From contig NZ_JAUYTP010000085.1 of NCBI RefSeq assembly GCF_030695125.1, positions 1 to 64,000 of the forward strand: a stretch of DNA of 64,000 nucleotides, read 5' to 3'. Both the position numbers and the translations under genes were made by a program. The notes beneath the pieces were generated by a model. It made no database searches, had not been told where the DNA came from, and saw only the letters and a program-made list of their open reading frames with translations. This DNA is from Allobosea sp. GTDB lineage: Bacteria > Pseudomonadota > Alphaproteobacteria > Rhizobiales > Beijerinckiaceae. This document shows positions 5,151-47,366 of this stretch, in pieces (the first letter of the stretch is position 1; each line of letters begins with the position of its first letter).

Positions 5151-5160
5151 GCGGAAAGAT

Positions 5161-8495: not shown

Positions 8496-8525
8496 GGCGA
8501 CGGCGCGGGGATGGCGCAGGCCCGG

Positions 8526-9185: not shown

Positions 9186-9201
9186 TAACCGTCGCCCCTT
9201 C

Positions 9202-9261: not shown

Positions 9262-9263
9262 TA

Positions 9264-10511: not shown

Positions 10512-10516
10512 TCCTC

Positions 10517-13672: not shown

Positions 13673-13676
13673 GGAC

Positions 13677-15212
13677 ATGACGCGGATGACGAAGACGGCT
13701 TTCGCCATGAACCTCTCGATCGGGACCATCCCGGCCCGCCTTGCCGGCCTGCCGCGCCTCGCCGGCGTCAGCCTCATGGTGGTCGCGCTGGCCGGCTGCG
13801 CCGTGGGGCCGGACTACGCCGCGCCGGGTCAGTTCCTGCCGACGAACTGGGGCAATGCGCCGAAGACGAACAAGCCGCTCGAGACGCGCCAGCTCGCGCA
13901 GTGGTGGAAGAAGCTCGGCGACCGGCGCCTGAACGAGATCGTCGATCGCGCGGTGGCGGGCAATCTCGACGTCGCCTCGGCCAAGGCCCGCATCCGGGAG
14001 GCCCGCGCGACGCGGCGGCAGGCGATCGGGGGACTGTTCCCCCAGGTCGATGGTTCCGGCGCGGCGACGCGCTCGCGCACGGCCGCCGCGACCTCGGCCA
14101 GTGGCGGAAACACCACCGGCAACCTGTTCCAGTCCGGCTTCGATGCGAGCTTCGAGCTCGACCTGTTCGGCGCGAATGCCCGCAATGTCGAGGCGACGAC
14201 CTATGGCGTCGATGCGGCCGACGAGGATCTCCGCGCCACGCTTTTGACCCTGATCGGCGATGTCGCGACCAACTATACGGAGGCGCGGGGCGCCCAGGCG
14301 CGCGCCGCGCTCGCCCGCCGCACGGCCGCCTCGCAGCGCGAGACCGAGCGGCTGACGCGCAACCGCTTTACGGCCGGCACGGCTTCGGCCCTCGACGTCG
14401 AGCGCGCGGCCGCCCAGGCCGCCACCACGGAAGCCGCCATCCCGACGCTGGAGGCGGCCTATGCGCAGAGCCTCCACCAGCTCGGCATCCTGACCGGCGA
14501 GGCGCCGACCGCGCTCGCCGGCATCCTCGGCTCCGGTGGACCGATCCCGGCGGCACGCGGCACGCCGCCGGCCGGCATTCCCGCCGACGTTCTGGTTAAC
14601 CGTCCCGATGTCCGCCGCGCCGAGCGCCAGCTCGCCCAGTCCACGGCCAAGATCGGCCAGGCGGAAGCGGCGCTCTATCCGAGCGTCAGCCTGACCGGGA
14701 ACATCCGCACAACCGCACTCAAGACGGGCGATCTCGCCAAGAACTCCTCGATCGGCTGGTCCTTCGGGCCGTCGCTGAGCGTGCCGATCTTCAACGGCGG
14801 CGAGCTGCGCGCCGCCGTCGAGGTCGCCGAGGCGCAGCGCGACCAATCCGACGCGGCGCTGCGGCTGGCCGTGCTGACCGCGCTGCAGGATGTCGAGAAC
14901 TCGCTGGTGAACCTCGCCAAGGAGCGGGTGCGGGCGGGCAAGCTCTCGGCTGCCGCCACCTCCTACCGCGAGGCGGCCCGGCTCTCGCGCACGCTTTACC
15001 AGTCCGGCGCTGCGAGCTTCCTCGACGTGCTCGACGCCGAGCGCTCGCTCTACAGCGCCGAGGACACGCTGCTGCAAAGCCGCGTCGCCGTGACCTCCAA
15101 CTTCGTCTCGCTCAACAAGGCGCTCGGCGGCGGCTGGGACAAGCCTGTCGACGTCTTGCTGCCGCGTCTCGTCGACACCCACACCGGTCCGCATCTGCGC
15201 GCGGCCTACTGA
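13677..15212 (+). CDS. RND efflux outer-membrane channel (OprM/NodT-type lipoprotein)
   Basis: A 511-residue TolC-superfamily outer-membrane factor. An N-terminal lipoprotein signal ends in the lipobox LAGC (VALAGCAVGPDYAAP), followed by the family's NWGNAPK and QWWKKLGDRRLNEIVDRA region. It has two repeats of the barrel and helical hairpins, including the diagnostic VLVNRPDVRRAERQLAQ segment and SVPIFNGGELRAAVEVAEAQ. The C-terminal half contains DVLDAERSLYSAED. It ends the operon four bases after the pump gene and faces selO across a small terminator. A slightly later ATG (13707) could also be the start. Confidence 0.93.
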   Translation: MTRMTKTAFAMNLSIGTIPARLAGLPRLAGVSLMVVALAGCAVGPDYAAPGQFLPTNWGNAPKTNKPLETRQLAQWWKKLGDRRLNEIVDRAVAGNLDVASAKARIREARATRRQAIGGLFPQVDGSGAATRSRTAAATSASGGNTTGNLFQSGFDASFELDLFGANARNVEATTYGVDAADEDLRATLLTLIGDVATNYTEARGAQARAALARRTAASQRETERLTRNRFTAGTASALDVERAAAQAATTEAAIPTLEAAYAQSLHQLGILTGEAPTALAGILGSGGPIPAARGTPPAGIPADVLVNRPDVRRAERQLAQSTAKIGQAEAALYPSVSLTGNIRTTALKTGDLAKNSSIGWSFGPSLSVPIFNGGELRAAVEVAEAQRDQSDAALRLAVLTALQDVENSLVNLAKERVRAGKLSAAATSYREAARLSRTLYQSGAASFLDVLDAERSLYSAEDTLLQSRVAVTSNFVSLNKALGGGWDKPVDVLLPRLVDTHTGPHLRAAY

Positions 15213-15228
15213 GGCGGCTGCGTCGCCT

Positions 15229-15246
15229 CCCGGCGGCTCAGCCGGG
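15229..15246. terminator. Hairpin between convergent efflux channel and selO genes
   Basis: CCCGGC and GCCGGG form a 6-bp GC stem around a GGCTCA loop, in the 36-base gap between two convergent stop codons. There is no T-tract. Position supports a shared terminator. Confidence 0.5.
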
Positions 15247-15248
15247 CC

Positions 15249-16703
15249 TCAGGTGCCGCAGAACGTCCGCCGCACGCGTTCATGCTGCTGCGGCGGGTTC
15301 TCATAGGCCGCGAACGCCTCGCGGTCCTCGAAGGGCCTGGCCAGCACGGTCATCAGCGTCTCGAACGGTGCGAAGTCGTCGCGCTCCTGCGCCGCCTCGA
15401 TCGCGGCGGCGATGCGGTGATTGCGCGGGATATAGGCCGGGTTGACCGAGAGAATCGCGCCGGATGCGGTCGCCTTGCTGCGCTGCCGCCAGCGTTCCAG
15501 CCAGCCCTCCAGCGCCGGGTCGTTGGCCAGCACCGCGCGCAGCGGCTCCTCGCCCGCAACCCCGGCCTTCAGCCGGCTGAGATGACGGAAGCTCAAGGTG
15601 AAATCGGCGCCATGCGCGCCGAGCAGGCCGAGGAATTCGGCGCCCAGCACGGTGTCGGCCTCGCTGTCGCCGGGCAGCCCGAGCTTGCGCGCGATGCCGG
15701 AGTCATAAGCCGCCTGGAAACGCGGCGCGAAGGCCTCCAGCGCCGTCTGGGCGAGCGCGACCGCCGCGTCGGTATCATCAGCCAGCAGCGGCAGCAGCGC
15801 CTCGGCTAGCCGCGTCAGGTTCCACAAGGCGATGCTCGGCTGGTTGCCATAGGCATAGCGGCCGCCGGTATCGATCGCGCTGAGCACGGTCTCCGGATCA
15901 TAGCTGTCGAGGAAGGCGCAGGGGCCGTAATCGATCGTCTCGCCGGCGATCGAGCAATTGTCGGTGTTCATCACGCCATGGATGAAGCCGACCAGGAGCC
16001 AGCGCGCGATCAGATCGGCCTGCGCCGCGATCACGGCGTCGAGCAGCGCCAACGCGGGATTGTCCGCCGCGGCCGCCTGCGGATAGTGCCGGGCGATGAC
16101 ATGCTCGGCGAGCAGCCGCAGCGCCTCGATATCCTTTCGCGCGGCGAAGAACTGAAACGTACCCACCCGGATATGGCTGGCGGCGACGCGCGTCAGGATC
16201 GCGCCCGGCAGAACCGCCTCGCGCATGACAGGCGCGCCGGTCAGGACGAAGGCGAGCGCCCGCGTCGTCGGAATGCCGAGCGCCGCCATCGCCTCGCTGA
16301 CGATGTATTCGCGCATCACCGGGCCCAGCGCCGCACGGCCGTCGCCGCTGCGCGAGAAGCGGGTGCGTCCGGCGCCCTTGAGCTGGATGTCGCGGCGCCT
16401 GCCGAGGCGGTCGACGACCTCGCCGAGCAGGATGGCGCGGCCGTCGCCGAGCTGCGGCGAGAACTGCCCGAACTGATGACCGGAATAGGCGGTCGCGATC
16501 GGCGTCGAGCCCGGCGCGACCGCATTGCCGGCGAGCATCGCGACGCCCTCGGCTCCCGCCAGCCAGGCCGCATCGAGCCCGAGTTCGTCGGCCAGGGCCG
16601 TGTTCAGTTGGACCAGACGCGGCGCGGGCACGGGCGTCGGCGGCGTCAGCGCAAAAAAGCGCTCCGGCAATTCCGCATAGCTGTTGTCGAAGGCGATGGG
16701 CAT
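15249..16703 (-). CDS. selO: SelO protein adenylyltransferase (YdiU/UPF0061 family)
   Basis: A 484-residue pseudokinase-fold enzyme that transfers AMP to proteins; in the family it is linked to redox stress. I use ATG 16703 (MPIAFDNSYAELPERFFAL), the standard family N-terminus. Clear motifs are QLGDGRAILLGEV, QLKGAGRTRFSRSGDGRAAL, GIPTTRALAFVLTG, HGVMNTDNCSIAGETIDYGP and CAFLDSYDPETVLSAIDTGG, and the chain ends with the conserved Cys-containing FCGT tail. Length and ends match full-length SelO. It is divergent from the acyl-CoA synthetase/GNAT gene with 126 bases between start codons. Confidence 0.95.
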   Translation of the reverse strand: MPIAFDNSYAELPERFFALTPPTPVPAPRLVQLNTALADELGLDAAWLAGAEGVAMLAGNAVAPGSTPIATAYSGHQFGQFSPQLGDGRAILLGEVVDRLGRRRDIQLKGAGRTRFSRSGDGRAALGPVMREYIVSEAMAALGIPTTRALAFVLTGAPVMREAVLPGAILTRVAASHIRVGTFQFFAARKDIEALRLLAEHVIARHYPQAAAADNPALALLDAVIAAQADLIARWLLVGFIHGVMNTDNCSIAGETIDYGPCAFLDSYDPETVLSAIDTGGRYAYGNQPSIALWNLTRLAEALLPLLADDTDAAVALAQTALEAFAPRFQAAYDSGIARKLGLPGDSEADTVLGAEFLGLLGAHGADFTLSFRHLSRLKAGVAGEEPLRAVLANDPALEGWLERWRQRSKATASGAILSVNPAYIPRNHRIAAAIEAAQERDDFAPFETLMTVLARPFEDREAFAAYENPPQQHERVRRTFCGT

Positions 16704-34274: not shown

Positions 34275-35021
34275 TCACAACGCCCGCAGCGGCGTCACGA
34301 TCAGGCGCCCGTCGGGCGCCGAGGACAGCGCCGCCTCGACCCCGAAGACGGCCGCAACCATGCGCTCGTCGATGACGGCACCCGGTTGGCCGCAGCACAC
34401 GACACGGCCCTGGCGCATCACCATGACCGCGTCGGCAAAGCGCGCCGCGATGTTGAGGTCGTGCAGGATGACGAGCGTGGTCAGCGACCGTGCCCGGGTC
34501 ATGCGCAGGACGATCGCCAGCACGTCGAGTTGGTGGCGGATGTCGAGCGCGCTGATCGGCTCGTCGAGCAGGAGCAGCGCAGGCTCCGACGCCAGCGCCT
34601 GTGCCAGGAAGACGAGCTGGCGCTGGCCGCCGCTGAGCTCGCCGAGATAGCGCGAGGCCAGCGGCATCAGGTCGAGTTCGCCCAGCACCGCCTCGACCGC
34701 GGCGAGATCCTCCGGGCGCACCCGCAGGCCCAGCCGCCCGAGACGCCCAAGCAGCACCGCTTCGAGCACGGTCAGCGCGGCGCGCGCGCCGATGTCCTGC
34801 GGCATGTAGCCGATCCGCTCCGGCCGCATGGGCGAGCCGTCGAAGCTGACCACGCCCTCATGCTTCACCAGCCCGGCGATGGCCTTGACCAGCGAGGACT
34901 TGCCCGAACCGTTGGGGCCGATCACGGCGAGAACCTCGCCGGGATGGGCGGTGAGGTCCACTGCCTCGATCGCCTGCGTGGCGCCGTAGCGGACGCTCAA
35001 TCCTTCGACGGTCAGCTTCAC
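34275..35021 (-). CDS. ABC transporter ATPase, FecE/BtuD type (iron-complex, cobalamin or metal-chelate uptake)
   Basis: A 248-residue nucleotide-binding subunit. Walker A is GPNGSGKSS (35-43), the Q-loop is IGYMPQDIG, the signature is LSGGQRQLVFLAQAL and Walker B is LLLLDEPISALD; the H-loop is ILHDLN. The start is GTG 35021, overlapping the permease stop by four bases. It powers the FecCD-type permease encoded just upstream in the same operon. Sequence alone does not tell iron siderophore, haem, cobalamin or another metal chelate apart. Confidence 0.93.
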   Translation of the reverse strand: MKLTVEGLSVRYGATQAIEAVDLTAHPGEVLAVIGPNGSGKSSLVKAIAGLVKHEGVVSFDGSPMRPERIGYMPQDIGARAALTVLEAVLLGRLGRLGLRVRPEDLAAVEAVLGELDLMPLASRYLGELSGGQRQLVFLAQALASEPALLLLDEPISALDIRHQLDVLAIVLRMTRARSLTTLVILHDLNIAARFADAVMVMRQGRVVCCGQPGAVIDERMVAAVFGVEAALSSAPDGRLIVTPLRAL

Positions 35022-36058
35022 CAGAAGGCCCTCCGGTTGCGCAGGATCAGCCAGACGAAGAAGGGCACGCCGATCAGCGAGGTGACGATGCCGATCGGCA
35101 CGATGGCGCCGGGCAGGACGGTCTTGCTGGCGATCGAGGCGAGCGAGAGCAGCAGCGCGCCATAGAGCGCCGAGGCCGGCAGGAAGCTGCGCTGATCCTC
35201 GCCAACCAGCATCCGCGCGATATGCGGCGCCACCAGCCCGACAAACCCGATCGTCCCGACGAAGGCGACTGCCACCCCTGTCAGCGCCGAGATCAGCACG
35301 AAGGAGCGCAGCCGCAGCTGCCGGACATCGACGCCCAGGCCCCGCGCCCGCTCGTCGCCGAGCTTCAGCGCGGTGAGCCGCCAGACATCGGCGACGAGAA
35401 CGGGGATGCAGGCGACGAGCACCGCCGTGATGATCCAGAGCTTGCTCCAACTCGCCTTCTGCAGCGAGCCGAACAGCCAGAACACGATCTGCTGCAGCGC
35501 CTCGGGCGAGGCGACGAACTGCAAGAGCGCCAGCAGCGCCTGGAACAGGAAGAGCAGCGCGATCCCGGCCAGCACCAGCATCTCGGGCGAGGATTCCCGC
35601 GCCTGGCCGATGCCGTAGACACCCGCGCAGGCGATTGCTGCGAAGAGGAACGCCATCAGCGGGATGCCCCAGGCCTCGGGCACCGGCATGGCGACGCCGA
35701 GCACGATGACGAGCGCCGCCCCGAAGCCGGCCCCGGCCGAGACGCCGAGCGTATAGCTCGACGCCAGCGGGTTGTTCAGGATCGTTTGCATGATGGCGCC
35801 GGACAATCCCAGCGCCGCCCCGACGACGAGCGCCACGAAGGCGATCGGCAGCCGGATCGACCAGACGATGGCATCGACCGTGCGGTCCTGCGCCAGCCCG
35901 AACACCGATTTCGCCACCGCCGCGACCGGCAGGAAGGCCGGCCCCGTCGCGACGTCGAGCACGAGGCTGACGAGGATGGCGACGGAGCCGATGGCGAGCA
36001 CCGCGACGCGGCGCGCGCCCATCGCGGCATAGGTCGCGGTGAGGGAGATCGCGCTCAT
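35018..36058 (-). CDS. ABC transporter permease, FecCD/BtuC family
   Basis: A 346-residue inner-membrane permease with about ten hydrophobic helices. Diagnostic stretches are IRLPIAFVALVVGAALGLSG, the IMQTILNNPLASSYTLGVSA segment near residue 90, and VGFVGLVAPHIARMLVG-like sequence (IGFVGLVAPHIARMLVGED) at the ATPase-coupling helix. The start ATG 36058 overlaps the binding-protein stop (ATGA). A homodimer of this protein would form the channel, as in BtuCD. One permease gene only, so no CD heterodimer. Confidence 0.93.
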   Translation of the reverse strand: MSAISLTATYAAMGARRVAVLAIGSVAILVSLVLDVATGPAFLPVAAVAKSVFGLAQDRTVDAIVWSIRLPIAFVALVVGAALGLSGAIMQTILNNPLASSYTLGVSAGAGFGAALVIVLGVAMPVPEAWGIPLMAFLFAAIACAGVYGIGQARESSPEMLVLAGIALLFLFQALLALLQFVASPEALQQIVFWLFGSLQKASWSKLWIITAVLVACIPVLVADVWRLTALKLGDERARGLGVDVRQLRLRSFVLISALTGVAVAFVGTIGFVGLVAPHIARMLVGEDQRSFLPASALYGALLLSLASIASKTVLPGAIVPIGIVTSLIGVPFFVWLILRNRRAFW

Positions 36059-37170
36059 GGCTTGAGCGGCAGCATCCAGGTGCCGCTGAAGGCGATCGGC
36101 AGGAAGGCCTTGTGATAGGCCCGGAACGATGCGACCGGGTCGACATCCGCGAAGGCCTCCGGATAGAGCCGCTTGGCGATGTATTGCATCGCCACGAAGT
36201 CGTAGAGCGTGCGGGCGAGCCCATGCTCGATGGCGTTGATGTCGCCGGCCTTGATCGCCTTCAGCTCGGCCCAGCCGGCGCGCTGCGCATAGGGCATCAG
36301 GCTGGCGCGGGTCTCCGTTTCCGGGATGTCGTAGCCGGTGCGCACCGCCTTGGGCCGGTTCACCCAGGAGGACGACGCCATCAGGATCAGGTCCGGGTTC
36401 TCGGCGATGACGGCCTCCGCATTGAGCGGTCCCCAGGGCCCGGGGATCTTGCCGGTGGCGATGTTCTCCGCCCCGAGCGTGGTGATGATCTTGCCCCACA
36501 TCGTGTTGTTGTAGGTGTTGCCGATCGTCTCCGCCCCGGCCTGGCCGAGTTCGACATAGACTTTCTTCGTCGGGGCGCCGGCCGCCTTGGCCTTCGCGAC
36601 GCGGGCGAGCACGTCGTTGTACTCGCGCTCGTAGAGGCTCGCGAGACCTTCGGCCCGGGCTTCCGTCCCCATCACCTTGCCGAGTGCGCGCGTCGAGGCG
36701 AGATGGCGCTCGAGCAACTGGGCGTTGTAGTCGATGATGACGACGGGGATGCCGGCGCCCTCGATCTGCTGCATCTGCGTGGCCAGGGACTTGTAGCCCC
36801 ATTCCGACATCAGCAGCACGTCGGGCTTCAGCCCGATGACCTTCTCGGCGCTGAAGGTGTTGTCGTCGCTATGGCCGATATCGGGCATGGCGGCGAGGTT
36901 GGGGATCACCGCCTTGTAGCGGTTGAAGATCACCGGCCGCCAGCCTTCCCAGGGCGCGCGCGAGATGCCGACGACTTTCTGCCAACCTTCGACGCCGGCG
37001 ACCGCGGTGAACTCCTCGAAATTGAAGTTCACCGCGACACGCTTCACCGGCAGATCGACCGTGACCTTGCGGCCGAGCGCGTCGGTGATCTCGGTGGGCG
37101 CGGCGAGCGCCGCAAGCGAGGAGGCCAGCAGCGCCGCGCCGGCCAGGAGGGATTTGAATGAGAAATGCAT
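36055..37170 (-). CDS. Periplasmic metal-chelate binding protein (FecB/BtuF-like)
   Basis: A 371-residue binding protein with a signal peptide (LLAGAALLASSLAALA). It has the helical-backbone fold marks: TDALGRKVTVDLPVKRVAV, the long FNFEEFTAVAGVEGWQKVVG first lobe, LKPDVLLMSEWG and AGIPVVIIDYNAQ. The second lobe has GQAGAETIGNTYNNTMWGKI. It delivers a metal complex to the permease encoded next. No TonB-dependent receptor gene is present in the island, which leaves the ligand open; a PCu(A)C copper chaperone gene lies directly upstream in the same orientation. Confidence 0.88.
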   Translation of the reverse strand: MHFSFKSLLAGAALLASSLAALAAPTEITDALGRKVTVDLPVKRVAVNFNFEEFTAVAGVEGWQKVVGISRAPWEGWRPVIFNRYKAVIPNLAAMPDIGHSDDNTFSAEKVIGLKPDVLLMSEWGYKSLATQMQQIEGAGIPVVIIDYNAQLLERHLASTRALGKVMGTEARAEGLASLYEREYNDVLARVAKAKAAGAPTKKVYVELGQAGAETIGNTYNNTMWGKIITTLGAENIATGKIPGPWGPLNAEAVIAENPDLILMASSSWVNRPKAVRTGYDIPETETRASLMPYAQRAGWAELKAIKAGDINAIEHGLARTLYDFVAMQYIAKRLYPEAFADVDPVASFRAYHKAFLPIAFSGTWMLPLKP

Positions 37171-37216
37171 CTTGGGGTTCCGTTGGATTGAAGGGGTCGT
37201 CGTTGCGGGCGAGGGC

Positions 37217-37690
37217 TCAGTGCTTGTGGGCGGGCTCGCGCGCGCCGACGCCCTGGACGGCGAATTCGACCGCGACCGTGCCGGCCTTCTCGAATTGCAG
37301 CGTCCCCTTGACCGCCTCGCCCTCCTTGAGGGGGCGCTTCAAATCCATGAACATGATGTGATAGCCGCCGGGCTTCAGCTCGGCCTTGGCGCCCGGCTTG
37401 ATCTCGAGCCCGGTATCCAGCGGGCGCATCGTCATGATGCCGTCCTTCACCGCCATCTCGTGGATCTCGATGCGGCCGGCGATGTCGGAGGCGCCGCCGA
37501 TCAGCCGGTCGGGCGCGCTGCCGCTGTTCTGGATCGTCAGATAGCCGCCGGCGACCTTGGCGCCGGCCGGCGTCGCGCGCGTCCAGGGATGGTCGATCTT
37601 GAGCGAGCCGAGCGTGTAGTCATGCGCGAGCGCCACCACGCTGGTGAGCGTCAGCATCGCGGCGGCGAGATAGTGCAGGGGCTTGTTCAT
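37217..37690 (-). CDS. PCu(A)C periplasmic copper chaperone
   Basis: A 157-residue secreted protein with a signal peptide (YLAAAMLTLTSVVALA). The copper site of the PCu(A)C family is present as a His/Met set: IHEMAVKDGIMTM, then about 20 residues later YHIMFM. The chain ends HKH, a further possible metal ligand. These proteins carry Cu(I) to cytochrome oxidase. It is 46 bases upstream of the FecB-like gene in the same direction, so the two probably share a transcript and the ABC system may belong to copper handling. Confidence 0.9.
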   Translation of the reverse strand: MNKPLHYLAAAMLTLTSVVALAHDYTLGSLKIDHPWTRATPAGAKVAGGYLTIQNSGSAPDRLIGGASDIAGRIEIHEMAVKDGIMTMRPLDTGLEIKPGAKAELKPGGYHIMFMDLKRPLKEGEAVKGTLQFEKAGTVAVEFAVQGVGAREPAHKH

Positions 37691-37952
37691 GGCAGGATCC
37701 TCGAGGGGTTGACGACGTCGGGTGGAATCGTGAGCCGGGCGGCCGTCGCGGTCGGATTGCGCGCGGCGACGGACAGAACGGGCTCAGGGCGTGCGGCAGA
37801 GGGATCGCGAGGCGATCAAGGACGAGCGGGCAGACGGAGCGGTCTCGTCAGCAGGGACGCCGGCAAGGTCTTTGCCGGGATCGCAGAGCGAAAGACCCGT
37901 CGCGAGCCTGTCGCCATCGTCGCAAGGAGCGTTGGCGCAGCCCGGCTCTGGT

Positions 37953-38351
37953 TTAGACGAGAGCGGGGGGCGCGCGCGGATTGGCCGGCGAACGGCCGGC
38001 GACATAGCCCTGCGGCGCGTCGAGATGGCGCGCGAAGGCGATGAGATCGACGGGGCGGTGAACGACGGGCACGAAGCTCGCGGCGGGTGTGGCCAGGCCA
38101 CCGCCCGACAGGGCGCAGCCGATCACGCAGCAGCTCGTCCGGTCATGCTGGGCCGTGCCCTGGTCGGACGCCGAGGGCGCCGGCATCTCGCCCGGCGCGC
38201 AGAGTGCCAGGGCCAGCGACCGGTCGAGGCTCATGCTCGCGGCATGGGCCCCCGAGGACAGCCCCGTGAAGACCGCCTGCAGCACGAGCAGATAGGCCGC
38301 GATGATCGCGACCCAACGGCGAGATGCTGCGTTTTTGCGGAATGCGGACAA
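37953..38351 (-). CDS. DUF2946-like small secreted protein
   Basis: A 132-residue hypothetical protein. I choose TTG 38351 because GGGAGA lies upstream with suitable spacing and the product then reads MSAFRKNAASRRWVAIIAAY, a signal peptide ending in SSGAHA. The mature part has a TSCCVIGCALSGG cysteine patch and ends NPRAPPALV, the Arg-Ala-Pro-Pro ending typical of DUF2946 proteins, which are often found with copper genes. The 262 bases between this gene and the PCu(A)C gene hold no gene I can support. It is divergent from the COG0523 GTPase. Function unknown; a metal role is inference. Confidence 0.65.
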   Translation of the reverse strand: MSAFRKNAASRRWVAIIAAYLLVLQAVFTGLSSGAHAASMSLDRSLALALCAPGEMPAPSASDQGTAQHDRTSCCVIGCALSGGGLATPAASFVPVVHRPVDLIAFARHLDAPQGYVAGRSPANPRAPPALV

Positions 38352-38435
38352 GGACGTGTCTCCCGGCTCGCTTCCTAGCACCGGGACGAGGCCTGTCAAA
38401 GGGGGGCGCTGCGGCGGCTTGTCCACCGGGCCCTG

Positions 38436-38465
38436 TTGACAACCAAGTAATGTTATACTGTAACA
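38436..38465 (+). promoter_or_regulatory. Promoter with Zur-like box for the COG0523 gene
   Basis: TTGACA (38436-38441), 17 bases, then TGTAAC (38459-38464) make a good sigma-70 promoter. Over the -10 lies a near-palindrome, TGTTA-TACTG-TAACA (38451-38465), with AAGTAA before it, closely matching the GTTATA/TATAAC-type operators bound by Zur. This would shut the gene off when zinc is plentiful, as is usual for zinc-related COG0523 genes. The patch is strikingly AT-rich against the local background. Confidence 0.75.
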
Positions 38466-38496
38466 AAATGGACTCTCTCCCCTGGGACTGCCCGCC

Positions 38497-39723
38497 ATGA
38501 CCGACGCCCTCTTCATCGACCGCCGCCTGCCCGTGACCGTGCTGTCCGGCTTTCTCGGTGCCGGCAAGACGACGCTGCTGAACCACATCCTCAACAACCG
38601 CGAGGGCAAGCGCGTCGCGGTGATCGTCAACGACATGAGCGAGGTCAACATCGACGCCGACCTCGTGCGCGAGGGTGGGGCGGGCCTGTCGCAGACGCAG
38701 GAGAAGCTCGTCGAGATGAGCAATGGCTGCATCTGCTGCACGCTGCGCGACGATCTGCTCACCGAGGTGCGCCGGCTCGCCGCCGAGAAGCGCTTCGACT
38801 ACCTGCTGATCGAGGGCACCGGCATCGCCGAGCCGCTGCCGATCGCCGCGACCTTCTCCTTCCGCGACGAGAACGACCAGTCGCTCGACGATGTCGCGCG
38901 GCTCGACACCATGGTCACGGTCGTCGATGCGCTCAACCTGCTCGCCGATTACGACAGCCGCGACTTCCTGGCCGATCGCGGCGAGACGGCGGGCGAGGGC
39001 GATGGCCGCACGCTGGTCGATCTCCTGGTCGAGCAGATCGAGTTCGCCGATGTCGTCGTCATCAACAAGATCGGCGAGGCGACGCCCGAACAGCGCGAGA
39101 AGGTGCGCCAGGTCGTGCGCGGATTGAACGGCGATGCGCGCATCGTCGAGGCCGAATTCGGCCGTGTGCCGCTGTCTGCGGTGCTCGACACGAAGCTCTA
39201 CAGCGAGGAGCGCTCGCAGGAACATCCGCTCTGGCACAAGGAGCTTTTCGGCTTCAAGGACCATGTCCCCGAGACCGAGGAATACGGCATCCGCTCCTTC
39301 GTCTACCGGGCGCGCCGCCCTTTCCACCCGCGCAAGCTCTACGATCTGCTGGAGCAGCGCCTGCCCGGCGTGATCCGCGCCAAGGGCCATTTCTGGCTGG
39401 CGACCCGGCCGCGCTGGGTCGGCGAGTACTCGCTGGCCGGTCGCATCACCCGCACCGAGGGCATGGGCAGCTGGTGGGCCGCGGTGCCCAAGGAACGCTG
39501 GCCGCGCTCGGAGGAGTTCGCCTCGCTGATGCGCAAGCACTGGTCGCAGACCTGGGGCGACCGGCGCCAGGAACTGGTCTTCATCGGCACGCAGGCGATG
39601 GACGAGGCGGTCATTCGCGCCCTGCTCGATTCCTGCCTCACCGGCAGCCCGGCGACCGGCATGACGCAGGGCCTGCTCACGCTCGAGGATCCCTTCCCCG
39701 CCTGGGACCGGCAGGCGGCCTGA
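38497..39723 (+). CDS. COG0523 (CobW-like) GTPase, probable zinc metallochaperone
   Basis: A 408-residue G3E-family GTPase. Walker A is GFLGAGKTT (residues 18-26); the metal-binding motif is Cys78-Ile-Cys80-Cys81 ([13 protein letters not shown]); the switch region has [16 protein letters not shown]. The guanine-recognition motif reads Asn190-Lys-Ile-Gly rather than NKxD. The C-terminal CobW domain includes [15 protein letters not shown]. Zur-regulated members pass zinc to client enzymes during starvation, and the box upstream points that way. A role in cobalt insertion (CobW) is less likely, although a cobalamin riboswitch follows downstream; that switch belongs to the next operon. Confidence 0.9.
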
Positions 39724-39819
39724 GACATGCGCGATCTCGGAAAGGCCGGGCGCCGCGCCGCGCCCGCGATGGCCTGCGACATTCTGTCTTGCGGCGCAGC
39801 ATCCGGCATGCTCTTTTCG

Positions 39820-39990
39820 CCGCGTCGGTTCCCGAGAGGGATCAAAAGGGAATCCGGTGCGGGCCCGTCAGGGCGCAAATCCGGAGCTGCCCCCGCAACT
39901 GTCAGCGGCGAGCGACGTTCGATCATGCCACTGGGCTCGCCCGGGAAGGCCGAACGAAGCATCGACCCGCGAGCCAGGAGACCTGCCGAC
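39820..39990 (+). ncRNA. Cobalamin (B12) riboswitch
   Basis: All core blocks of the cobalamin class are readable in order: AAAAGGGAATCCGGTGCGGG (39844-39863), CCCGCAACTGT near 39892, GCCACTGGG (39927-39935), CCGGGAAGG (39941-39949), and the B12 box GAGCCAGGAGACCTGCC (39971-39987). The region fills most of the 408-base gap after the COG0523 gene. Off-state signals lie just downstream: a GC-rich hairpin-forming stretch (about 40009-40025) and a strong AAGGAG ribosome site at 40026-40031. It should reduce expression of the downstream methyltransferase-ABC operon when adenosylcobalamin or a related corrinoid is present. End coordinates are approximate. Confidence 0.96.
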
Positions 39991-40036
39991 GTCGTGAAGC
40001 CAATCAACCGGGCGGGGTGCCCCGGAAGGAGCTCTG

Positions 40037-40153
40037 ATGACGGTCGCTCTCCCGCGCGGGCTTTTCGCGCGTCCGGAACGCAACGGCGCCACAGCACCGA
40101 CCGCTCCCCGCTCGCGGGAGCCCGGTGACGGATGCTGCAGGAAACAACCCTAG
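40037..40153 (+). CDS. Possible 38-residue leader peptide ORF after the riboswitch
   Basis: ATG 40037 has an ideal AAGGAG five bases upstream, better than that of the next gene. The frame runs 38 codons to TAG 40151-40153 and reads MTVALPRGLFARPERNG..., ending GDGCCRKQP. It overlaps the methyltransferase start (40132) in a different frame. This ribosome site sits just where a riboswitch would control access, so translation of the leader could open the methyltransferase start by coupling. It may be only a spurious frame; composition is not informative at this length. Confidence 0.4.
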   Translation: MTVALPRGLFARPERNGATAPTAPRSREPGDGCCRKQP

Positions 40154-40977
40154 ACGCCGGGCAGGACGCGGCCCATTCGAGCTCGAATTTCGGCCTGAAG
40201 GACGAGATCCGGACCTATTGGTCCAAGCGCGCCGAGACCTTCGATCTCTCCTACGGCCACAGGATCCGCTCCACCGGCGAGTTCGACGCCTGGTCGAGAC
40301 TGATCGCGCACCATGCCCCGATCGGCCCCGGCGACCGTGTGCTCGAGCTTGCCTCCGGCACGGGCGAGGTCACGCGCCTGTTGTTAGGCTTCGGCTGCAG
40401 CGTCGATGCCATCGATCTCTGCGAGCCGATGATCGAGCGCGCGAAGACGAAACATCGTGGCTCCGCCGTGCGCTTTCATCTCGGCGATGCCGAGAACACG
40501 ATGATGCCCGACGCCCTCTACGATCTGGTGATCTGCCGCAACCTCGTCTGGACGCTGGTCGATCCGCAGGCCGCCCTGGCGGACTGGCTGCGCGTGCTGA
40601 AGCCCGGCGGCGCGCTGGTCGTCGTCGATGGCGACTGGGTCAACCGCTCGCGGCGGGCGAGGCTGCTGCAACGCCTGTCGGGATGGGTCGACCGGCTGAC
40701 GGCCGCGCCGCATCTCTGGGACGAGGCGGCGCATCGGCGCATCATGCGCGGCGTCTTCTTCCGCAACGGGCTCAAGGCGCCCGCCCTCGCCACCATGGCG
40801 TCGGCTGCCGGCTTCGTCGCCATCCGCACCGGCCCCTTGACCGGAATCAGGCGCCGCCAATTCGCCTCCGCCTCCTGGAGCGAGCGGCTGCGGCTGCTGG
40901 CGACCTATGACGACACCTTCATCCTCTCGGCCCGCAAGCCGACGCTCGCCGCCAACACCCCCGGAGCCTCCCCATGA
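40132..40977 (+). CDS. Class I SAM-dependent methyltransferase, riboswitch-controlled
   Basis: A 281-residue methyltransferase. The SAM-binding loop is VLELASGTGEV (residues 70-80), followed by DLCEPMIERA (acidic loop) and DLVICRNLVWTLVDPQAAL with LKPGGALVVVDG. The N-terminal DEIRTYWSKRAETFDLSYGH stretch resembles small-molecule methyltransferases. ATG 40132 is the first in-frame start after a stop at 40126-40128. The stop overlaps the next gene (ATGA), so it is the first full-length gene of a five-gene operon under the cobalamin riboswitch. Its substrate is unknown; it might modify a metal-binding small molecule handled by the transporter. Confidence 0.88.
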   Translation: MLQETTLDAGQDAAHSSSNFGLKDEIRTYWSKRAETFDLSYGHRIRSTGEFDAWSRLIAHHAPIGPGDRVLELASGTGEVTRLLLGFGCSVDAIDLCEPMIERAKTKHRGSAVRFHLGDAENTMMPDALYDLVICRNLVWTLVDPQAALADWLRVLKPGGALVVVDGDWVNRSRRARLLQRLSGWVDRLTAAPHLWDEAAHRRIMRGVFFRNGLKAPALATMASAAGFVAIRTGPLTGIRRRQFASASWSERLRLLATYDDTFILSARKPTLAANTPGASP

Positions 40978-42527
40978 TGTCCACGCCCCTCGACCGTCGC
41001 GCCCTCCTGTCGGGGGCGCTCGCCGGCGCGGCCGCGCTCGCCGCGCGCCCGACCCTCGCCCAGGCTGCGGGTCCGGCCGAGCTGCGCATCGCCCAGCCCT
41101 GGGAGGTCAAGACCCTCCAGCTCGGCGAATCCGGCTTCACCTTCACCCGCGCCGGCATCACGGAAACACTCGTCGCCTCGCTGCCGGACGGGCGCATCGC
41201 GCCGGGCCTGGCCCAGTCCTGGAGCGTCAGCGACGACGGGCTGCAATGGCGCTTCCGGCTGCGCGACGCCGTGTTCCATGACGGCACGCGGCTCGATGCC
41301 GCGACAGCCAAGGCGTCCTTCGACCGGCTGCTGCCGCAATCGCTCTATCTGAAGCGTGCCGGCATCGCCGCCGTCCATGCAGATGGTCAGGACCTCGTGC
41401 TGAAGCTCGAGAAGCCGTTCGGCCCGCTCCTGTCCTATCTCGTCGACAACTCGGCCGCGCTGCTGGCGCCCGGCGCCTTCGACGGCGAGGGCCGCGTGCG
41501 GGCCATCATCGGCACGGGACCGTTCAAGATCGGCGCGGCCGAGCTGCCCCGCAGCCTGGCGCTGGTCCGGCACGAAGCCTATTGGGGCGAGAAGGCGCGC
41601 GTCGCCGCCGTTCGCTACGACGCGGTCGGCAATGGCGACACCCGCACCAACATCGCCGTCGCCAAGGATGCCGACATCGTCTTCAACCTGGCGGCGCAGG
41701 GCGTCGGCCGCGCGGGATCGGCCGGCATGACGATCGAGCGCGTGATCATTCCCCGCACCCACATCCTGATGCTGAACTGCGCCAAGCCGCAATTCGCGGA
41801 AGCTCCGGTGCGCCGGGCGCTCAGCATGGCACTCGATCGCGAGGGCATCGCGGCGGGCATTATGCGCAACAAGGCGCTGGCGGCGACGCAGTACCTGCCG
41901 CCGACGCTGGCCGAGTGGCACTTCGCCGACCTCGCCCCGCTCCGCCAGGATGTCACGGCCGCCAACGCCCTGCTCGACGCTGCCGGCTGGCCGCGCGGCG
42001 CCGACGGCATCCGCGCCAAGGGTGGCGTGCGCTTTGCCGGCACCGTCCGCACCTTCGCCAACCGGCCTGAGCTGCCGGTGATCGCCACCGCGATGCAGGC
42101 GCAGCTGCGCGCGATCGGCTTCGATCTCGCCATCAGCGTCGGCGAGGCGCAGGCGATCTTTGAGGCGCAGAAGGACGGCTCGCTCGAACTGGGTCTCAGC
42201 TCGCGCAATCTCGTCATCGTGCCCGACCCGATCGGTACCATCGCGCTGGACTATGCCGCCGACAGCATCGCGCCCGGCTCGACGGGCACCACCGGCTGGC
42301 GCCATGATGGGTTGAGGCAGGAGGTGGCGCGCTATCTCGCCGAGGCGGACGACAGGCGCCGCGCCACGGCAAGGCGCGCCATCGCCGGCATCATCCATGA
42401 GGAGCTGCCGATCATCCCCGTGACCTGGTACGACCAGATCGTCGCCGTTCATCCGCGGGTTTCCGGCTTCGTCACGGACCCGCTCGAGCAGCGCTACTTC
42501 CTCGACAGGGTCACGATCGCGTCGTGA
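40974..42527 (+). CDS. ABC substrate-binding protein, peptide/nickel family (SBP_bac_5)
   Basis: A 517-residue periplasmic binding protein of the DppA/OppA/NikA class. A Tat-like signal (PLDRRALLSGALAGAAALAA) starts the chain. The family pattern is clear: ITETLVASLPDGRIAPGLAQ, WRFRLRDAVFHDGTRLDAATAKASFDR split over about residues 84-112, IIGTGPFKIG and RRALSMALDREGIA. NikA-type members bind nickel or cobalt as small chelates, others bind peptides. Given a B12 riboswitch upstream, a cobalt or nickel chelate is a reasonable guess, not shown by sequence. Start and stop both overlap neighbouring genes. Confidence 0.9.
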   Translation: MMSTPLDRRALLSGALAGAAALAARPTLAQAAGPAELRIAQPWEVKTLQLGESGFTFTRAGITETLVASLPDGRIAPGLAQSWSVSDDGLQWRFRLRDAVFHDGTRLDAATAKASFDRLLPQSLYLKRAGIAAVHADGQDLVLKLEKPFGPLLSYLVDNSAALLAPGAFDGEGRVRAIIGTGPFKIGAAELPRSLALVRHEAYWGEKARVAAVRYDAVGNGDTRTNIAVAKDADIVFNLAAQGVGRAGSAGMTIERVIIPRTHILMLNCAKPQFAEAPVRRALSMALDREGIAAGIMRNKALAATQYLPPTLAEWHFADLAPLRQDVTAANALLDAAGWPRGADGIRAKGGVRFAGTVRTFANRPELPVIATAMQAQLRAIGFDLAISVGEAQAIFEAQKDGSLELGLSSRNLVIVPDPIGTIALDYAADSIAPGSTGTTGWRHDGLRQEVARYLAEADDRRRATARRAIAGIIHEELPIIPVTWYDQIVAVHPRVSGFVTDPLEQRYFLDRVTIAS

Positions 42528-43516
42528 GTGCAGCCCGGTCTTCGTTCTGGCCCGGCGGTGCGGCGGGCACCGTCCTGCGCATCGTCGCCTCACGTCTGGT
42601 GCAGGCGGTGCTGACGGCGCTCGTCCTCGCCAGCCTCTGCTTCGCCTTCGTCCAGGCGCTGCCGGGGGATGCGGCCCTGCGCATCGCCGCCGCCCGCAGC
42701 GGCGACGACCGGGTCACGGCGGAGTCTGTCGCGCGAGTGCGCGAGCAGGAGGGCTTGGATCGGCCTGTCCTGGCGCAATATGCGAGCTGGATCGGCCGGC
42801 TCGCCCAGGGCGATCTCGGTCACTCGCTGGTGTCGCGCCAGCCCGTCTGGCAGGAACTGGCCGAGCATGGCCGCTTCACGCTCGGTCTCGGCGCGCTGGG
42901 CTGGCTGCTCTCCTATGCCATCGCCCTGCCGCTCGGCATCGCCTGCGGTTTCAGGCCCGGCGGCTGGCTCGACCGTGGCACCAATGCGCTGGCGGTGGCG
43001 CTCGCCTCGATGCCGAGCTTCCTCGTCGGCATCGGCCTGATCTCGCTCTTCGCGCTCACCCTGCGCTGGCTGCCGCCGGCGGGGTTCCGCACCGGCGCGC
43101 ATATGGTGCTGCCGGCGCTGACGCTGGCGCTGGGGCTGGCCGCCTTCTCGGTGCGGATCATCCGCAATGCGGTGGTCGAGGTCCGCGGCGCCTTCTACAT
43201 GACGTTTGCGCGCATCCGCGGCCGCAGCGCCGGCTCCGCCTTCCTGCATCATGGCGTGCGCAATGCGGCGATCCCCGTGGCGACCTTCGCCGCCCTGCAG
43301 TTCGCCTATGTCGTCGACGGCTTCGTCGTGGTCGAGACGCTGTTCAACTATCCGGGCCTCGGCGATCTGCTCGTCAAGTCGCTGCTGGCGCGCGACGTGC
43401 CGATGATCATGGGGGCGGGCATGGTCGTCGGGCTGATGTATGCGGCGGTCAATCTCCTCGCCGATCTCGCCTGCATCGGGCTCGATCCGCGCCGTCTCGC
43501 GGGGCGCGGCGCATGA
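42524..43516 (+). CDS. ABC permease 1, DppB/NikB type
   Basis: A 330-residue inner-membrane permease with about six helices. It has the DppB/NikB marks: an N-terminal helix (RLVQAVLTALVLASLCFAFV), the LPGDAALRIAA stretch, LDRPVLAQYASWIGRLAQGD, GHSLVSRQPV, and the coupling segment of the binding-protein-dependent family (IRNAVVEVRGAFYMTFARIR). GTG 42524 overlaps the stop of the binding-protein gene. It pairs with the next gene product as a heterodimer. Confidence 0.92.
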   Translation: MSAARSSFWPGGAAGTVLRIVASRLVQAVLTALVLASLCFAFVQALPGDAALRIAAARSGDDRVTAESVARVREQEGLDRPVLAQYASWIGRLAQGDLGHSLVSRQPVWQELAEHGRFTLGLGALGWLLSYAIALPLGIACGFRPGGWLDRGTNALAVALASMPSFLVGIGLISLFALTLRWLPPAGFRTGAHMVLPALTLALGLAAFSVRIIRNAVVEVRGAFYMTFARIRGRSAGSAFLHHGVRNAAIPVATFAALQFAYVVDGFVVVETLFNYPGLGDLLVKSLLARDVPMIMGAGMVVGLMYAAVNLLADLACIGLDPRRLAGRGA

Positions 43517-44349
43517 CGCTCGCCCTGACGCATCCGCCCGCCCGCATCCGCCGACCGCTCGTCGCCCCTCTGCTGCTGCTCGGCGGCCTCGCGGCGCTGG
43601 TCGTGATCGGCCCGCTCGTCATCCCGCATGACCCGGCCGCGCAGGACCTCGTCCGCACGCTGGAGGGGCCGAGCGCGCAGCACTGGTTGGGCACCGACCA
43701 TCTCGGCCGCGACATTGCCGCCCGCCTCGTCCATGGCGGCGTGCGCTCGCTCGGCATCGCCGTCTCCTGCGTCGGCTTCGCCACCGGGGTCGGAGTCGCG
43801 CTCGGGCTCGTGGCGGCCTATGCCGGCCGCGTCGCCGACATTGCAATCATGCGCCTGGCCGACCTGATGCTCGCCTTCCCCGGCCTCCTGCTGGCGCTGC
43901 TGATCTCCGGCTTCCTCGGCGGCGGCGTCCTGCCCATGCTGATCGGCATCAAGCTCGCGCTCTGGCCGCAATTCGCGCGGATGGCCCGCGCCATCGCCAT
44001 CGGCGAGCTGGCGCAGCCCCATGTCGAGGCGGCGCGCCTCGCCGGCTTCCCCGCGCTGACCATCCTGCGCCGCCATGTCCTGCCGCCGGTGCTCCGCCAG
44101 ACGGTGACGCTGGCGACGCTGGGGCTCGGCGCGGCGATCATGTCGATCTCTTCGCTCGGCTTCCTCGGGCTGGGCCTGCAGCCGCCGACACCCGAATGGG
44201 GCGCGATGATCAGCGAACTCCTGCCCTATCTGGCGGAGGCTCCCGTCCAGATGGCGGCGCCCTGCCTGGCGATCTTCCTCGCCGTGCTCGGGGCCACGCT
44301 GCTCGGCCAGGCCCTCGCCGAGCCACCCGCTCTGCCGGAGGAGATGTGA
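43513..44349 (+). CDS. ABC permease 2, DppC/NikC type
   Basis: A 278-residue permease partner. Typical features: the N-terminal helix (VAPLLLLGGLAALVVIGPLV), the signature GTDHLGRDIAARLVHGGVRS near residue 58, and the coupling loop EAARLAGFPALTILRRHVLP. Its hydrophobic profile suggests about six membrane helices. The ATG overlaps the stop of permease 1, and its stop shares one base with the ATPase start (TGATG), so all subunits are made together. Confidence 0.93.
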   Translation: MTLALTHPPARIRRPLVAPLLLLGGLAALVVIGPLVIPHDPAAQDLVRTLEGPSAQHWLGTDHLGRDIAARLVHGGVRSLGIAVSCVGFATGVGVALGLVAAYAGRVADIAIMRLADLMLAFPGLLLALLISGFLGGGVLPMLIGIKLALWPQFARMARAIAIGELAQPHVEAARLAGFPALTILRRHVLPPVLRQTVTLATLGLGAAIMSISSLGFLGLGLQPPTPEWGAMISELLPYLAEAPVQMAAPCLAIFLAVLGATLLGQALAEPPALPEEM

Positions 44350-45860
44350 TGACCGCGCCCGCACTGGCCCTTTCGGGACTGACGATCCGGGACCGGAGCG
44401 GCACCGCTCTGGTCTGCGATGTCGACCTGACGCTCGAGGCCGGCTCCGTGCTGCTCCTGATCGGCGAGACCGGCAGCGGCAAGAGCCTGATCGCCCAGGC
44501 CGTGATGGGCCTCCTGCCGGCCGGCTTCTCCGCCAGCGGCAGCATCGCCATCAACGGGCATGCACCGGTCGAGGCCAGCCAGGCCGGGCTGCTGCGGCTG
44601 CTCTGGTCGCGCGAGACGCTGCTGTTGCCGCAGGAGCCCCGCGCCGCCCTCGACCCGACGATGCGGATTGCGCCGCAGCTCTGGGATGCCGGGGCGCGCG
44701 ACGGCACGGCGTGGCACGGCGAGGCCGGCCACGGGCTGACGACGCAGGAGGCGCTGGCCGCAGTCGATCTGCCGCCGCGCGTCTCGCGCGCCTTTCCGGC
44801 CGAGCTCTCCGGTGGCATGGCCCAGCGTGTCCTCGTCGCCTCCGCGCTGGTCGGCCGCGCGCCGCTGGTCGTCGCCGACGAGCCGACCAAGGGGCTCGAT
44901 GCCGCGCGCGTCGCCCAATCCGCCGCGCTGCTGGCCTCGCTCGGCGGCGCCGGGCGCGCGCTGCTCGTGATCACGCATGACGTGGCGCTGGCGCGCGCGC
45001 TCGGCGGTCAGCTGGCGGTGCTCCGCGACGGGCGCATCGTCGAGCAGGGCCCGGCGGACACCGTCTTCGCGGCCCCCGACCATCCCTATACGCGCGCCTG
45101 GCTCGCCGCCGACCCCTCGACCTGGCGGCCCTGCCTGCGTTGCTGCGACCTCGAGGCGCCGGTGCTCTCCGCGCATGGGCTGTCCTTCGGCTTCAGCCGC
45201 GCGGAGCCGCTGTTTTCCGGTGTCGACGTCCATATCCCGCCCGGCGGCATTCTCGGCCTCACCGGGCGCAGCGGCTGCGGCAAGACCACGCTCGGCAACA
45301 TCCTGCTCGGCCTGCAGCCCCCGTCGGCCGGAGCCGTGAATTGGCAGGGCGTCGACCCCTATCGCGATCGCGCCGGCGCGCGCCGCCTGCGTCAGCGCTA
45401 CCAGAAGCTTCACCAGGATCCGGCGAGCGTCTTCCTGCCGGGACGCAGCTTCGCGCGCCAGTTTGCCGATCTCGCCGAGGTCGTACCGGGTCTCGTACTC
45501 GATGACGCGCTGCCGCCGCTGCTGGAGCGGCTGAGGCTCGACCGCAAGCTGCTCGCGCGGCGCCCCGGCGAGGTCTCGGGCGGAGAGGCCCAGCGCCTGG
45601 CGCTGGCGCGCATCCTGCTGCTGAAGCCGGCGCTGATCGTCGCCGACGAGCCGACCTCGCGCCTCGACCCGCTGGTCCAGCGCGAAGCCATCGCGCTGCT
45701 GGCGGAGATCGTCGCCAGCGAGAGCCTCGGCCTCGTCCTGATCAGCCATGACCGGGCGCTGCTGGCGGCGACCGCCGACGAGGTGCTCGACATCGGCGCG
45801 GGCGAGGGCGCCACGATCTTGCCCGGCTATGCGCGCGGCCTTCAGGAGGCCTCGTCGTAG
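44349..45860 (+). CDS. Fused two-domain ABC ATPase (DppD-DppF / NikD-NikE in one chain)
   Basis: A 503-residue protein with two full ATPase domains. Domain 1: Walker A GETGSGKS (39-46), signature LSGGMAQRVLVASALV, Walker B LVVADEPTKGLDAARV. A linker with a cysteine-rich WRPCLRCCDLE follows near residue 260. Domain 2: Walker A GRSGCGKTT at about 306-314, signature VSGGEAQRLALARIL, Walker B IVADEPTSRLDPLV. In most Dpp/Nik systems these are separate proteins. Fusion fixes the 1:1 pairing. ATG 44349 is preferred over longer upstream frames because it overlaps the permease stop. The C-terminus overlaps the convergent small gene by 19 bases. Confidence 0.92.
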   Translation: MTAPALALSGLTIRDRSGTALVCDVDLTLEAGSVLLLIGETGSGKSLIAQAVMGLLPAGFSASGSIAINGHAPVEASQAGLLRLLWSRETLLLPQEPRAALDPTMRIAPQLWDAGARDGTAWHGEAGHGLTTQEALAAVDLPPRVSRAFPAELSGGMAQRVLVASALVGRAPLVVADEPTKGLDAARVAQSAALLASLGGAGRALLVITHDVALARALGGQLAVLRDGRIVEQGPADTVFAAPDHPYTRAWLAADPSTWRPCLRCCDLEAPVLSAHGLSFGFSRAEPLFSGVDVHIPPGGILGLTGRSGCGKTTLGNILLGLQPPSAGAVNWQGVDPYRDRAGARRLRQRYQKLHQDPASVFLPGRSFARQFADLAEVVPGLVLDDALPPLLERLRLDRKLLARRPGEVSGGEAQRLALARILLLKPALIVADEPTSRLDPLVQREAIALLAEIVASESLGLVLISHDRALLAATADEVLDIGAGEGATILPGYARGLQEASS

Positions 45861-46091: not shown

Positions 46092-47366
46092 CTAGCGCTT
46101 GGTGATCTCGAAGTCGGGGATGCTGGGCCCGGTCGAGGCTCGCTCGCCGTCGCGCAGGATCGGCGAGGGCTTCTGCGATATCCGCAAGGTGATGTAGATT
46201 GCGACCAGCAGCGACAGCCCCATCAGATAGACGAGCATGCCGGGCGGGCCGATGAGTTGCATCAGGGCGGTGGCAGCCACCGGCCCCAGCGCCGATCCCA
46301 CGCCCCAGAGAAACAGCAGTTGCGCGGAGAGGCCGACCGCCTCCTCCCGCCCGATCCGCAGATAGGCATGCGTCACCGCGACCGTGTAGAGCGGGATGGC
46401 GCAGCCGCCGATCAGCGCAAACAGGCCAAACAGCCAGAGGCTCCCCTGGGCTGCGCCGCCTGGCGGCACCAGCAGCAGCACGGCGGCGGTGACGGCGACG
46501 AGGCTGACCGCGCCGAGCATGATCGGGCGGCTGGCGACCCGGTCGGCGAGCAGGCTCATCGGCCACTGCATCAGCAGCGCCCCCATCTGGATGCCCGCCG
46601 TGAGCAGGATGGTCGTCCGCTGGTCGAGCCCCGACAGGATGCCATAGGCCGGCACGACATTGGTCAGCGGCCCGCTGACCAGCCCGACATAGAGGCAGCC
46701 GACCACGGCGGCCGGCGCCTGGCGCCAGAGCGTGCGCAGCCCCACCGCGACGACATCGCTCGATTCGGGGCCGCGCGCCCGGGTCAGCGCGACGGGGATC
46801 AGCGCCAGCGAAAACACCATGCTGGCGAACAGGAAGACGTCGTGGGACTGGATCGCGAGATAGCCGACGCCGAGCTGCGAGCCGATCATCGCGACGCGGT
46901 TGAGAATCTGGTAGGCGCCGAAGATGCGGCCGCGCCGCGCGCCGCTGGCCTGGCCGCTGATCCAGCTCTCGATGCAGATGCCGTGGCCGGCCGCCGCCAG
47001 CCCCATCAGCAGGCGCGAGGCGCTCCACCAGGGTTCGGGGATCAGGGGGAAGCTCAGCGTCGCGGTTGCCTGCAACGCCGCGAAAACCGCAAAGCCGCGG
47101 ATATGGCCGATCCGGCGCACGAGCGACGGAATCGTGAAGCAGCCGATCAGGAAGCCGAGCGAATAGGCGGAGGCGACGAGGCCGATCAGCAGCGGCGGCT
47201 GACCGGCGATCGCCATGCGCAGCGGCACGACCGTGTTCACGATCGTGCCGGCGACCTGCAGCAGCAAGGCGCCCGTCACGATCGCACCGAGCGCCGCGAC
47301 CGATCCCGTTGCGGCCGGGGCAGGCGCCCCCGACGGGGCGGAGCCGCTCATCGCAGGCGGCCGCAT
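46092..47366 (-). CDS. MFS transporter (sugar-phosphate/YcaD-like antiporter type)
   Basis: A 424-residue major facilitator protein with about twelve hydrophobic helices in two halves. GLVASAYSLGFLIGCFTIPS and RRIGHIRGFAVFAALQA form the loop 2-3 signature; later AGHGICIESWISGQASGARR, a stretch seen in YcaD-like MFS proteins, is followed by GRIFGAYQILNRVAMI. ATG 47351 (MSGSAPSG) is an alternative start. The substrate is not predictable. It is followed closely by the 73-residue gene. Confidence 0.85.
   Translation of the reverse strand: MRPPAMSGSAPSGAPAPAATGSVAALGAIVTGALLLQVAGTIVNTVVPLRMAIAGQPPLLIGLVASAYSLGFLIGCFTIPSLVRRIGHIRGFAVFAALQATATLSFPLIPEPWWSASRLLMGLAAAGHGICIESWISGQASGARRGRIFGAYQILNRVAMIGSQLGVGYLAIQSHDVFLFASMVFSLALIPVALTRARGPESSDVVAVGLRTLWRQAPAAVVGCLYVGLVSGPLTNVVPAYGILSGLDQRTTILLTAGIQMGALLMQWPMSLLADRVASRPIMLGAVSLVAVTAAVLLLVPPGGAAQGSLWLFGLFALIGGCAIPLYTVAVTHAYLRIGREEAVGLSAQLLFLWGVGSALGPVAATALMQLIGPPGMLVYLMGLSLLVAIYITLRISQKPSPILRDGERASTGPSIPDFEITKR

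Follow-up and report, generated by a model that had tools for sequence, protein, structure and literature searches.

The window analysed here, the first 64,000 nucleotides of contig NZ_JAUYTP010000085.1 of an Allobosea sp., carries an operon in which a predicted cobalamin riboswitch precedes genes for an S-adenosylmethionine (SAM)-dependent methyltransferase and for an ATP-binding cassette (ABC) importer of the peptide/nickel type. On balance, this operon probably encodes an adenosylcobalamin-repressed importer that takes up a small chelate of a divalent metal, most likely Co(II), and is co-expressed with the methyltransferase from one message. Sequence directly shows the switch and its operon, the fact that switch and methyltransferase recur together, and a switchless sister class of the importer, which lies in zinc-starvation contexts and is free of the methyltransferase but for one locus.

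The riboswitch and its operon

The aptamer (39809..40004, forward strand) matches the full RF00174 model (positions 1-189) with 141.1 bits (gathering score 31.5, E 1.4e-35) and is the sole Rfam match at gathering in the whole window. Its B12 box, GAGCCAGGAGACCTGCC, lies at 39971-39987, as a preliminary description of this DNA had stated. The riboswitch is thus assigned from a covariance model at full length, and ligand-dependent control of the downstream genes is predicted. A hairpin, CCGGGCGGGGTGCCCCGG, at 40008-40025 and an AAGGAG Shine-Dalgarno motif at 40026-40031 follow on the same strand and together (40008..40031) form the probable expression platform; the hairpin loop is presumably L13, the partner of aptamer loop L5. 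The core CGGGCGGGGTG was present 3' of the B12 box in 13 of the 14 loci compared that carry the switch (L106 being the exception, and L124 and L145 standing outside the comparison). The AAGGAG motif serves a 38-codon leader open reading frame (ORF; 40037..40153, forward strand), which overlaps the start of the methyltransferase gene, suggesting translational coupling. The start codon and Shine-Dalgarno motif of the leader are common to eight loci of the same genus; nevertheless, differences in six pairs of four representatives are spread evenly over the codon positions (46/48/49), without codon-position bias, so that importance of the leader peptide itself is not supported.

The operon consists of five forward-strand ORFs, with neighbours overlapping by 1-4 bases each, and both the ORFs and their Pfam domains agree with the five overlapping genes of the preliminary description. 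The first (40132..40977, 281 aa) has the Methyltransf_11/25 domain (Methyltransf_11, 73.7 bits) and the fold of a class I SAM-dependent methyltransferase; its AlphaFold2 model (predicted local distance difference test, pLDDT, 88.4) is of the generic small-molecule type, and no NCBIfam methyltransferase cut-off was reached among the 25 of 31 families listed (best 59.6 bits). The solute-binding protein (40974..42527, 517 aa) belongs to Pfam SBP_bac_5 and is nearest to the NikA models, and its AlphaFold2 model (pLDDT 89.5) matches the structures of the same binding-protein fold family. Two NikB/Opp- and NikC/Opp-type permeases with BPD_transp_1 domains, permease B (42524..43516, 330 aa) and permease C (43513..44349, 278 aa), are followed by a fused double ATPase (44349..45860, 503 aa), in which two ABC_tran stretches correspond to NikD-like and NikE-like halves. 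The permeases and ATPase halves are nearest to Nik/Opp2 NCBIfam models, with all matches listed scoring below their cut-offs. Convergent with the operon lies a major facilitator superfamily (MFS) transporter gene (window 46092-47366, reverse strand), also found in L103, L104 and L126.

Under the favoured interpretation as a cobalt-chelate importer, scarcity of adenosylcobalamin would cause the hairpin at 40008-40025 to release the aptamer loop, which would free the Shine-Dalgarno motif at 40026 and allow translation of the leader ORF and then, by coupling, of the methyltransferase and importer. Cobalt would thereby enter the cell as a chelate and supply CobN-dependent synthesis of cobalamin. 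The chelator may be the target of the methyltransferase, modified either prior to its release from the cell, where a locus has an EamA exporter, or once imported, which would free the metal. PF02514, which covers CobN and also magnesium chelatase, was found in all 11 importer-bearing genomes searched. The source genome (5.1 Mb, 87 contigs) has three RF00174 matches, the second of which lies upstream of genes for a HupE_UreJ protein, CobW and CobN. The third is downstream of another copy of zigA, a zinc metallochaperone gene described below, and precedes genes for a 258-aa protein, a TonB receptor and a Peripla_BP_2 protein. The 258-aa protein, encoded directly behind this riboswitch and before the TonB receptor (L043 8117-8890), has no Pfam match, and a Zur-like palindrome (L043 8908-8922) is situated between the riboswitch and the next gene. 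EamA is absent from the operon of the window, and a 41% relative is encoded elsewhere in the source genome.

Recurrence in related genomes

RF00174 was found in 65 of the 67 genomes of the genus (the source genome counted), the methyltransferase in 55 (at E 1e-30) and the binding protein in 18 (at E 1e-60). Permease B at E 1e-75 was found in 5/397 genomes of the order, indicating that the importer is rare, and one of these five (G298, 46%) falls outside the importer family as defined. Relatives at 58% identity or above in named records are from Alphaproteobacteria wherever the title tells, Bosea included. Comparison was made on 27 loci with readable upstream DNA, including the window, drawn from the genus, the family (G087), one plasmid and genome contigs, a scan of which gave 27 loci, 21 of them at 58% or above. 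Left out were L126, L138 and L144, with the importer at a contig edge and its upstream DNA missing; L128, L129, L130, L133, L139, L153 and L154, which, judged from their length and content, are the same contigs as L105, L111, L112, L115, L106, L131 and L136, respectively; L147-L152 and L125, which are more distant or too short; nine sister-family loci with permease B at 44-47% (L110, L113, L114 and L117-L122); and L109, a third type linked to NikR.

The preliminary description had proposed co-occurrence in relatives as a check, and RF00174 was indeed found above cut-off upstream of the importer in 16/27 loci, with the methyltransferase gene between switch and importer in every one. The gene is full length in 13 (the window, L103-L108, L027, L124, L141, L142, L145 and L146) and truncated in three (L111, L112 and L143). 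The remaining 11 loci had no switch in front of the importer by cmscan of the locus; one of them, L116, has a riboswitch after the operon, where it precedes genes for DUF1636 and CobU. In ten of these 11, the methyltransferase was not found by tblastn at 1e-8 or 1e-15. The association of switch and methyltransferase gave a Fisher p of 1.3e-6 over the 27 loci, uncorrected for kinship, and the recurrence of the order switch, methyltransferase, binding protein in other genomes shows that the arrangement is more than chance. On a permease tree of 33 rows, six of them outside the family, the switch label requires five changes (4-5 in bootstraps, 11.3 with shuffled labels), and the switch was likely gained or lost repeatedly within the importer family. 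Divergent importers that carry the switch come from four or more families of Alphaproteobacteria. With only 27% identity to that of the window, the methyltransferase of Sinorhizobium medicae (L124) may have been recruited separately.

An EamA exporter gene occurs in 10/27 loci of both classes (L026, L105, L108, L116, L124, L127, L131, L132, L135 and L141; Pfam confirmation was made for L108 and L124) and in pieces in L140, and DUF1636 occurs in L124, L145 and several loci of the zinc-linked class. In L106, ribonucleotide reductase genes (11366-16268) lie directly upstream of the switch-methyltransferase-importer operon and are accompanied by a separate B12 box, visible in L139; similar reductase genes are near zigA in L110.

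Zinc context of the importer family

Upstream of the riboswitch, the window carries a gene for a ZigA-type COG0523 zinc metallochaperone GTPase (zigA; 38497..39723, forward strand), which has CobW Pfam domains and scores 597.2 bits against NF038288, just missing the cut-off of 600. Approximately 30 bases before zigA is the palindrome TGTTATACTGTAACA (38451..38465), which we take to be of the Zur type and which has no mismatches to the scanned pattern (mean of 0.05 in shuffles). The zigA gene is also upstream of the switch in L103, L107, L108, L111 and L112, with a TonB receptor gene between the two in L107, L108 and L112. Moreover, zigA heads six switchless loci (L116, L127, L131, L132, L134 and L135) and persists as a remnant in L026. 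Zur-like boxes (with two mismatches or fewer, here and below) were found upstream in 8/11 switchless loci, and across the 27 loci there were 18 sites in total, against none in 20 Markov controls. Every one of the 11 switchless loci therefore has zigA (or its remnant), a box, or both, and the importer is most likely related to a zinc system.

Boxes are found on the switch side as well, in the window and eight other loci, and zinc status may thus add a second, transcriptional control there. In L104, L105 and L141 the box lies upstream of the aptamer by ~110-175 bases, an interval in which no gene is recognisable. The box could also act on divergent ORFs, which in L141 encode a sigma-54 activator, in L104 a DUF2946 protein scoring just below the cut-off and in L105 a product without a family; in the window, a DUF2946-PCuAC-FecBCD gene set likewise lies opposite the box, on the reverse strand. 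That set (window 34275-38378, reverse strand) comprises genes for a Peripla_BP_2 protein (371 aa), a permease ORF, an ATPase, the copper chaperone PCuAC and DUF2946, divergent from zigA across the box. It is possible that zigA and the operon share one transcript; no terminator was found between them, an absence of little weight since the same scan gave no promoter in 38300-40200. In L127, of the zinc-linked class, three tandem SBP_bac_5-type proteins of different types are encoded before a single EamA-permease-ATPase set (2301-7072).

The methyltransferase beside other importers

A search with the methyltransferase gave 22 matches, three of which are Nik-type (the window, L005 and L006); 16 of the remaining 19 were extended and examined, with L021-L023 left out. 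All 16 extended loci, with paralogs at 41-53% identity, adjoin an importer of the FecBCD type (clustering at 38% identity). Family models applied to two of them gave a ferrichrome/ferrioxamine-type binding protein (below cut-off) and BtuC-like permease in L034 and an EitA-like binding protein in L037. In the latter (5921-9973), a B12 riboswitch precedes the EitA-like binding protein, a BtuC-like permease and the methyltransferase paralog, giving a second importer type with both switch and methyltransferase; it is the one such case among these 16 loci, of which six were covered by full cmscan and the others by a B12-box search expression only. On pSymB of Sinorhizobium meliloti 1021 (L123), a methyltransferase 46.6% identical to that of the window is divergent from a FecBCD importer; as judged by the split binding protein, this is probably SMb21429-32, which has been described as an iron uptake system in the available text of PMC2848241 and PMC2912261. 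L123 resembles the window in having a methyltransferase of the same family beside a chelate-type importer, and differs in the type of that importer. Finally, L109 (G193) has genes for NikR, a binding protein, two permeases and a methyltransferase 59% identical to that of the window in one run (9039-13715); the locus lacks a switch, and tblastn found no ATPase there. Judged from its neighbours, the methyltransferase appears to accompany several kinds of metal-chelate importer.

Comparison with known systems

In NikA, Arg97, Trp100 and Arg137 are relevant residues. In a pairwise phmmer alignment inspected by eye, at ~25% identity, these correspond in the window binding protein to Q122, Y125 and N159, and H416 corresponds to I432, so that none of the four is kept. 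The title of structure 3qim describes H416 as essential for nickel uptake. The scores also fell short of the NikA equivalog cut-offs (NF045468, 215.8 bits against 600; TIGR02294, 178.3 against 393), and with scores this far below them and H416 not conserved, NikA proper is rejected. Among the ligands suggested in the preliminary description, a cobalt chelate stands as the simplest reading, while nickel is weakened on these grounds and a corrinoid precursor by the zinc-linked sisters. The same description stated that a Nik-type importer with a leading methyltransferase is not a standard member of the B12-switch list, which is too strong: a B12 riboswitch was earlier predicted before members of the NikABCDE family in two Firmicutes, Clostridium tetani and Desulfitobacterium hafniense (PMC2667541). 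Those operons likewise place a peptide/nickel-family importer behind the switch, but have two separate ATPases and, in the available text of that paper, no mention of a methyltransferase; the family described here differs in its alphaproteobacterial hosts, fused ATPase, methyltransferase, optional EamA and DUF1636, and zinc-linked sister class.

CbtJKL of S. meliloti is, like the window system, an alphaproteobacterial ABC importer under an adenosylcobalamin riboswitch, and is described as importing cobalt in the available text of PMC7689651, where CbtJ is said to resemble BtuF. The window binding protein belongs to another family, SBP_bac_5/Opp rather than the BtuF-like Peripla_BP_2, and identity with CbtJKL is rejected. 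Opine metallophore clusters (staphylopine, pseudopaline), as presented in the available text of PMC7438024, have an Opp- or FecCD-type importer, an EamA or MFS exporter and sometimes an extra class I methyltransferase. The window has an Opp-type importer, with an MFS transporter gene convergent with its operon. Membership of the opine metallophore (Cnt) group is rejected, as the nicotianamine-synthase-like CntL (PF03059) was found in none of 13 genomes searched; among 14 control genomes one matched, that of Methanosarcina acetivorans.

Alternative explanations

Several observations weigh against a cobalt-specific role or the independence of its comparative support. Well-supported (starred) branches of the permease tree force only one change of the switch label, and independent pairs number one on those branches and five on all, too few for significance. 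L026 has the methyltransferase without a switch, behind the zigA remnant, and truncation of the gene in three switch loci indicates that the methyltransferase is dispensable. The occurrence of its relatives with FecBCD and NikR-linked importers shows, in addition, that it is not specific to cobalt, and the lack of CntL in the genomes searched counts in the same direction. Zur-like boxes are upstream in 9/16 switch loci, including the window, and five switch loci of its genus (L105, L107, L108, L111 and L112) have a binding protein of the type found in the zinc class.

The last two observations bear on a live rival that was missing from the readings of the preliminary description, namely that the metal is zinc. 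MetE binds zinc. A zinc-chelate importer could be induced by B12 shortage if B12-independent enzymes such as MetE raise the demand for zinc, with Zur acting on transcription at zinc shortage and the switch on translation at B12 shortage. The sister operons behind zigA and/or Zur-like boxes, and the position of zigA upstream of the switch in six loci, would accord with such a role. Moreover, on plasmid pSU277_4 of S. medicae (L124 3574-4185), the operon switch adjoins, back to back, a second switch that faces genes for an acyl-CoA thioesterase, LysR, DUF1852 and methionine synthase. Against this, strong MetE-type matches (>500 bits, PF01717) occur in only 2/11 carrier genomes (G087 and G191), the best in the others being 52-127 bits, and that of the source genome (111 bits) falls on a contig (C83) without any of that genome's three switches. 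No Zur-like box was found in seven switch loci (L027, L106, L124, L142, L143, L145 and L146), and the methyltransferase is left unexplained. Zinc is the main, if rather unlikely, alternative.

A more elaborate version of the cobalt reading is more doubtful still. This proposes a secreted cobaltophore system, in which a mobile module for zinc chelates, made up of the binding protein, permeases, fused ATPase and EamA exporter, would have become a cobalt module by gain of a riboswitch-methyltransferase cassette, the methyltransferase altering the exported or imported chelator. In the genus of the window, the system would then work as an AND gate, with the message under Zur and its translation under B12 shortage.

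It is improbable that the operon serves peptide or opine import, has nothing to do with metals and came under the switch by accident; the binding-protein fold family does also bind peptides, glutathione and opines, but the spread of the switch over divergent members in several alphaproteobacterial families, and the zinc context of the rest, speak against an accident. Many B12 switches control corrinoid uptake (available text of PMC3766115), and import of a corrinoid or corrinoid precursor, methylated by the methyltransferase, is nonetheless very unlikely because the sisters are in zinc contexts and the binding protein is of the Opp type, nearest the NikA class, while proteins of the usual corrinoid type, a TonB receptor and a Peripla_BP_2 protein, are encoded separately in the source genome under another switch. 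We know of no SBP_bac_5 protein that imports corrinoids.

Significance

What is apparently new is that a methyltransferase and a B12 switch are paired on an importer of Alphaproteobacteria of which a zinc-linked form also occurs. The routes by which B12-making soil bacteria take up cobalt are only partly mapped, and one based on chelates would be added by an Opp-type importer that is under a B12 switch and has a dedicated methyltransferase. It would also give a first handle on a methyltransferase family that accompanies metal-chelate importers for no known reason. The zinc version and the B12 version together would form a natural pair for studying how one importer family is re-aimed between metals.

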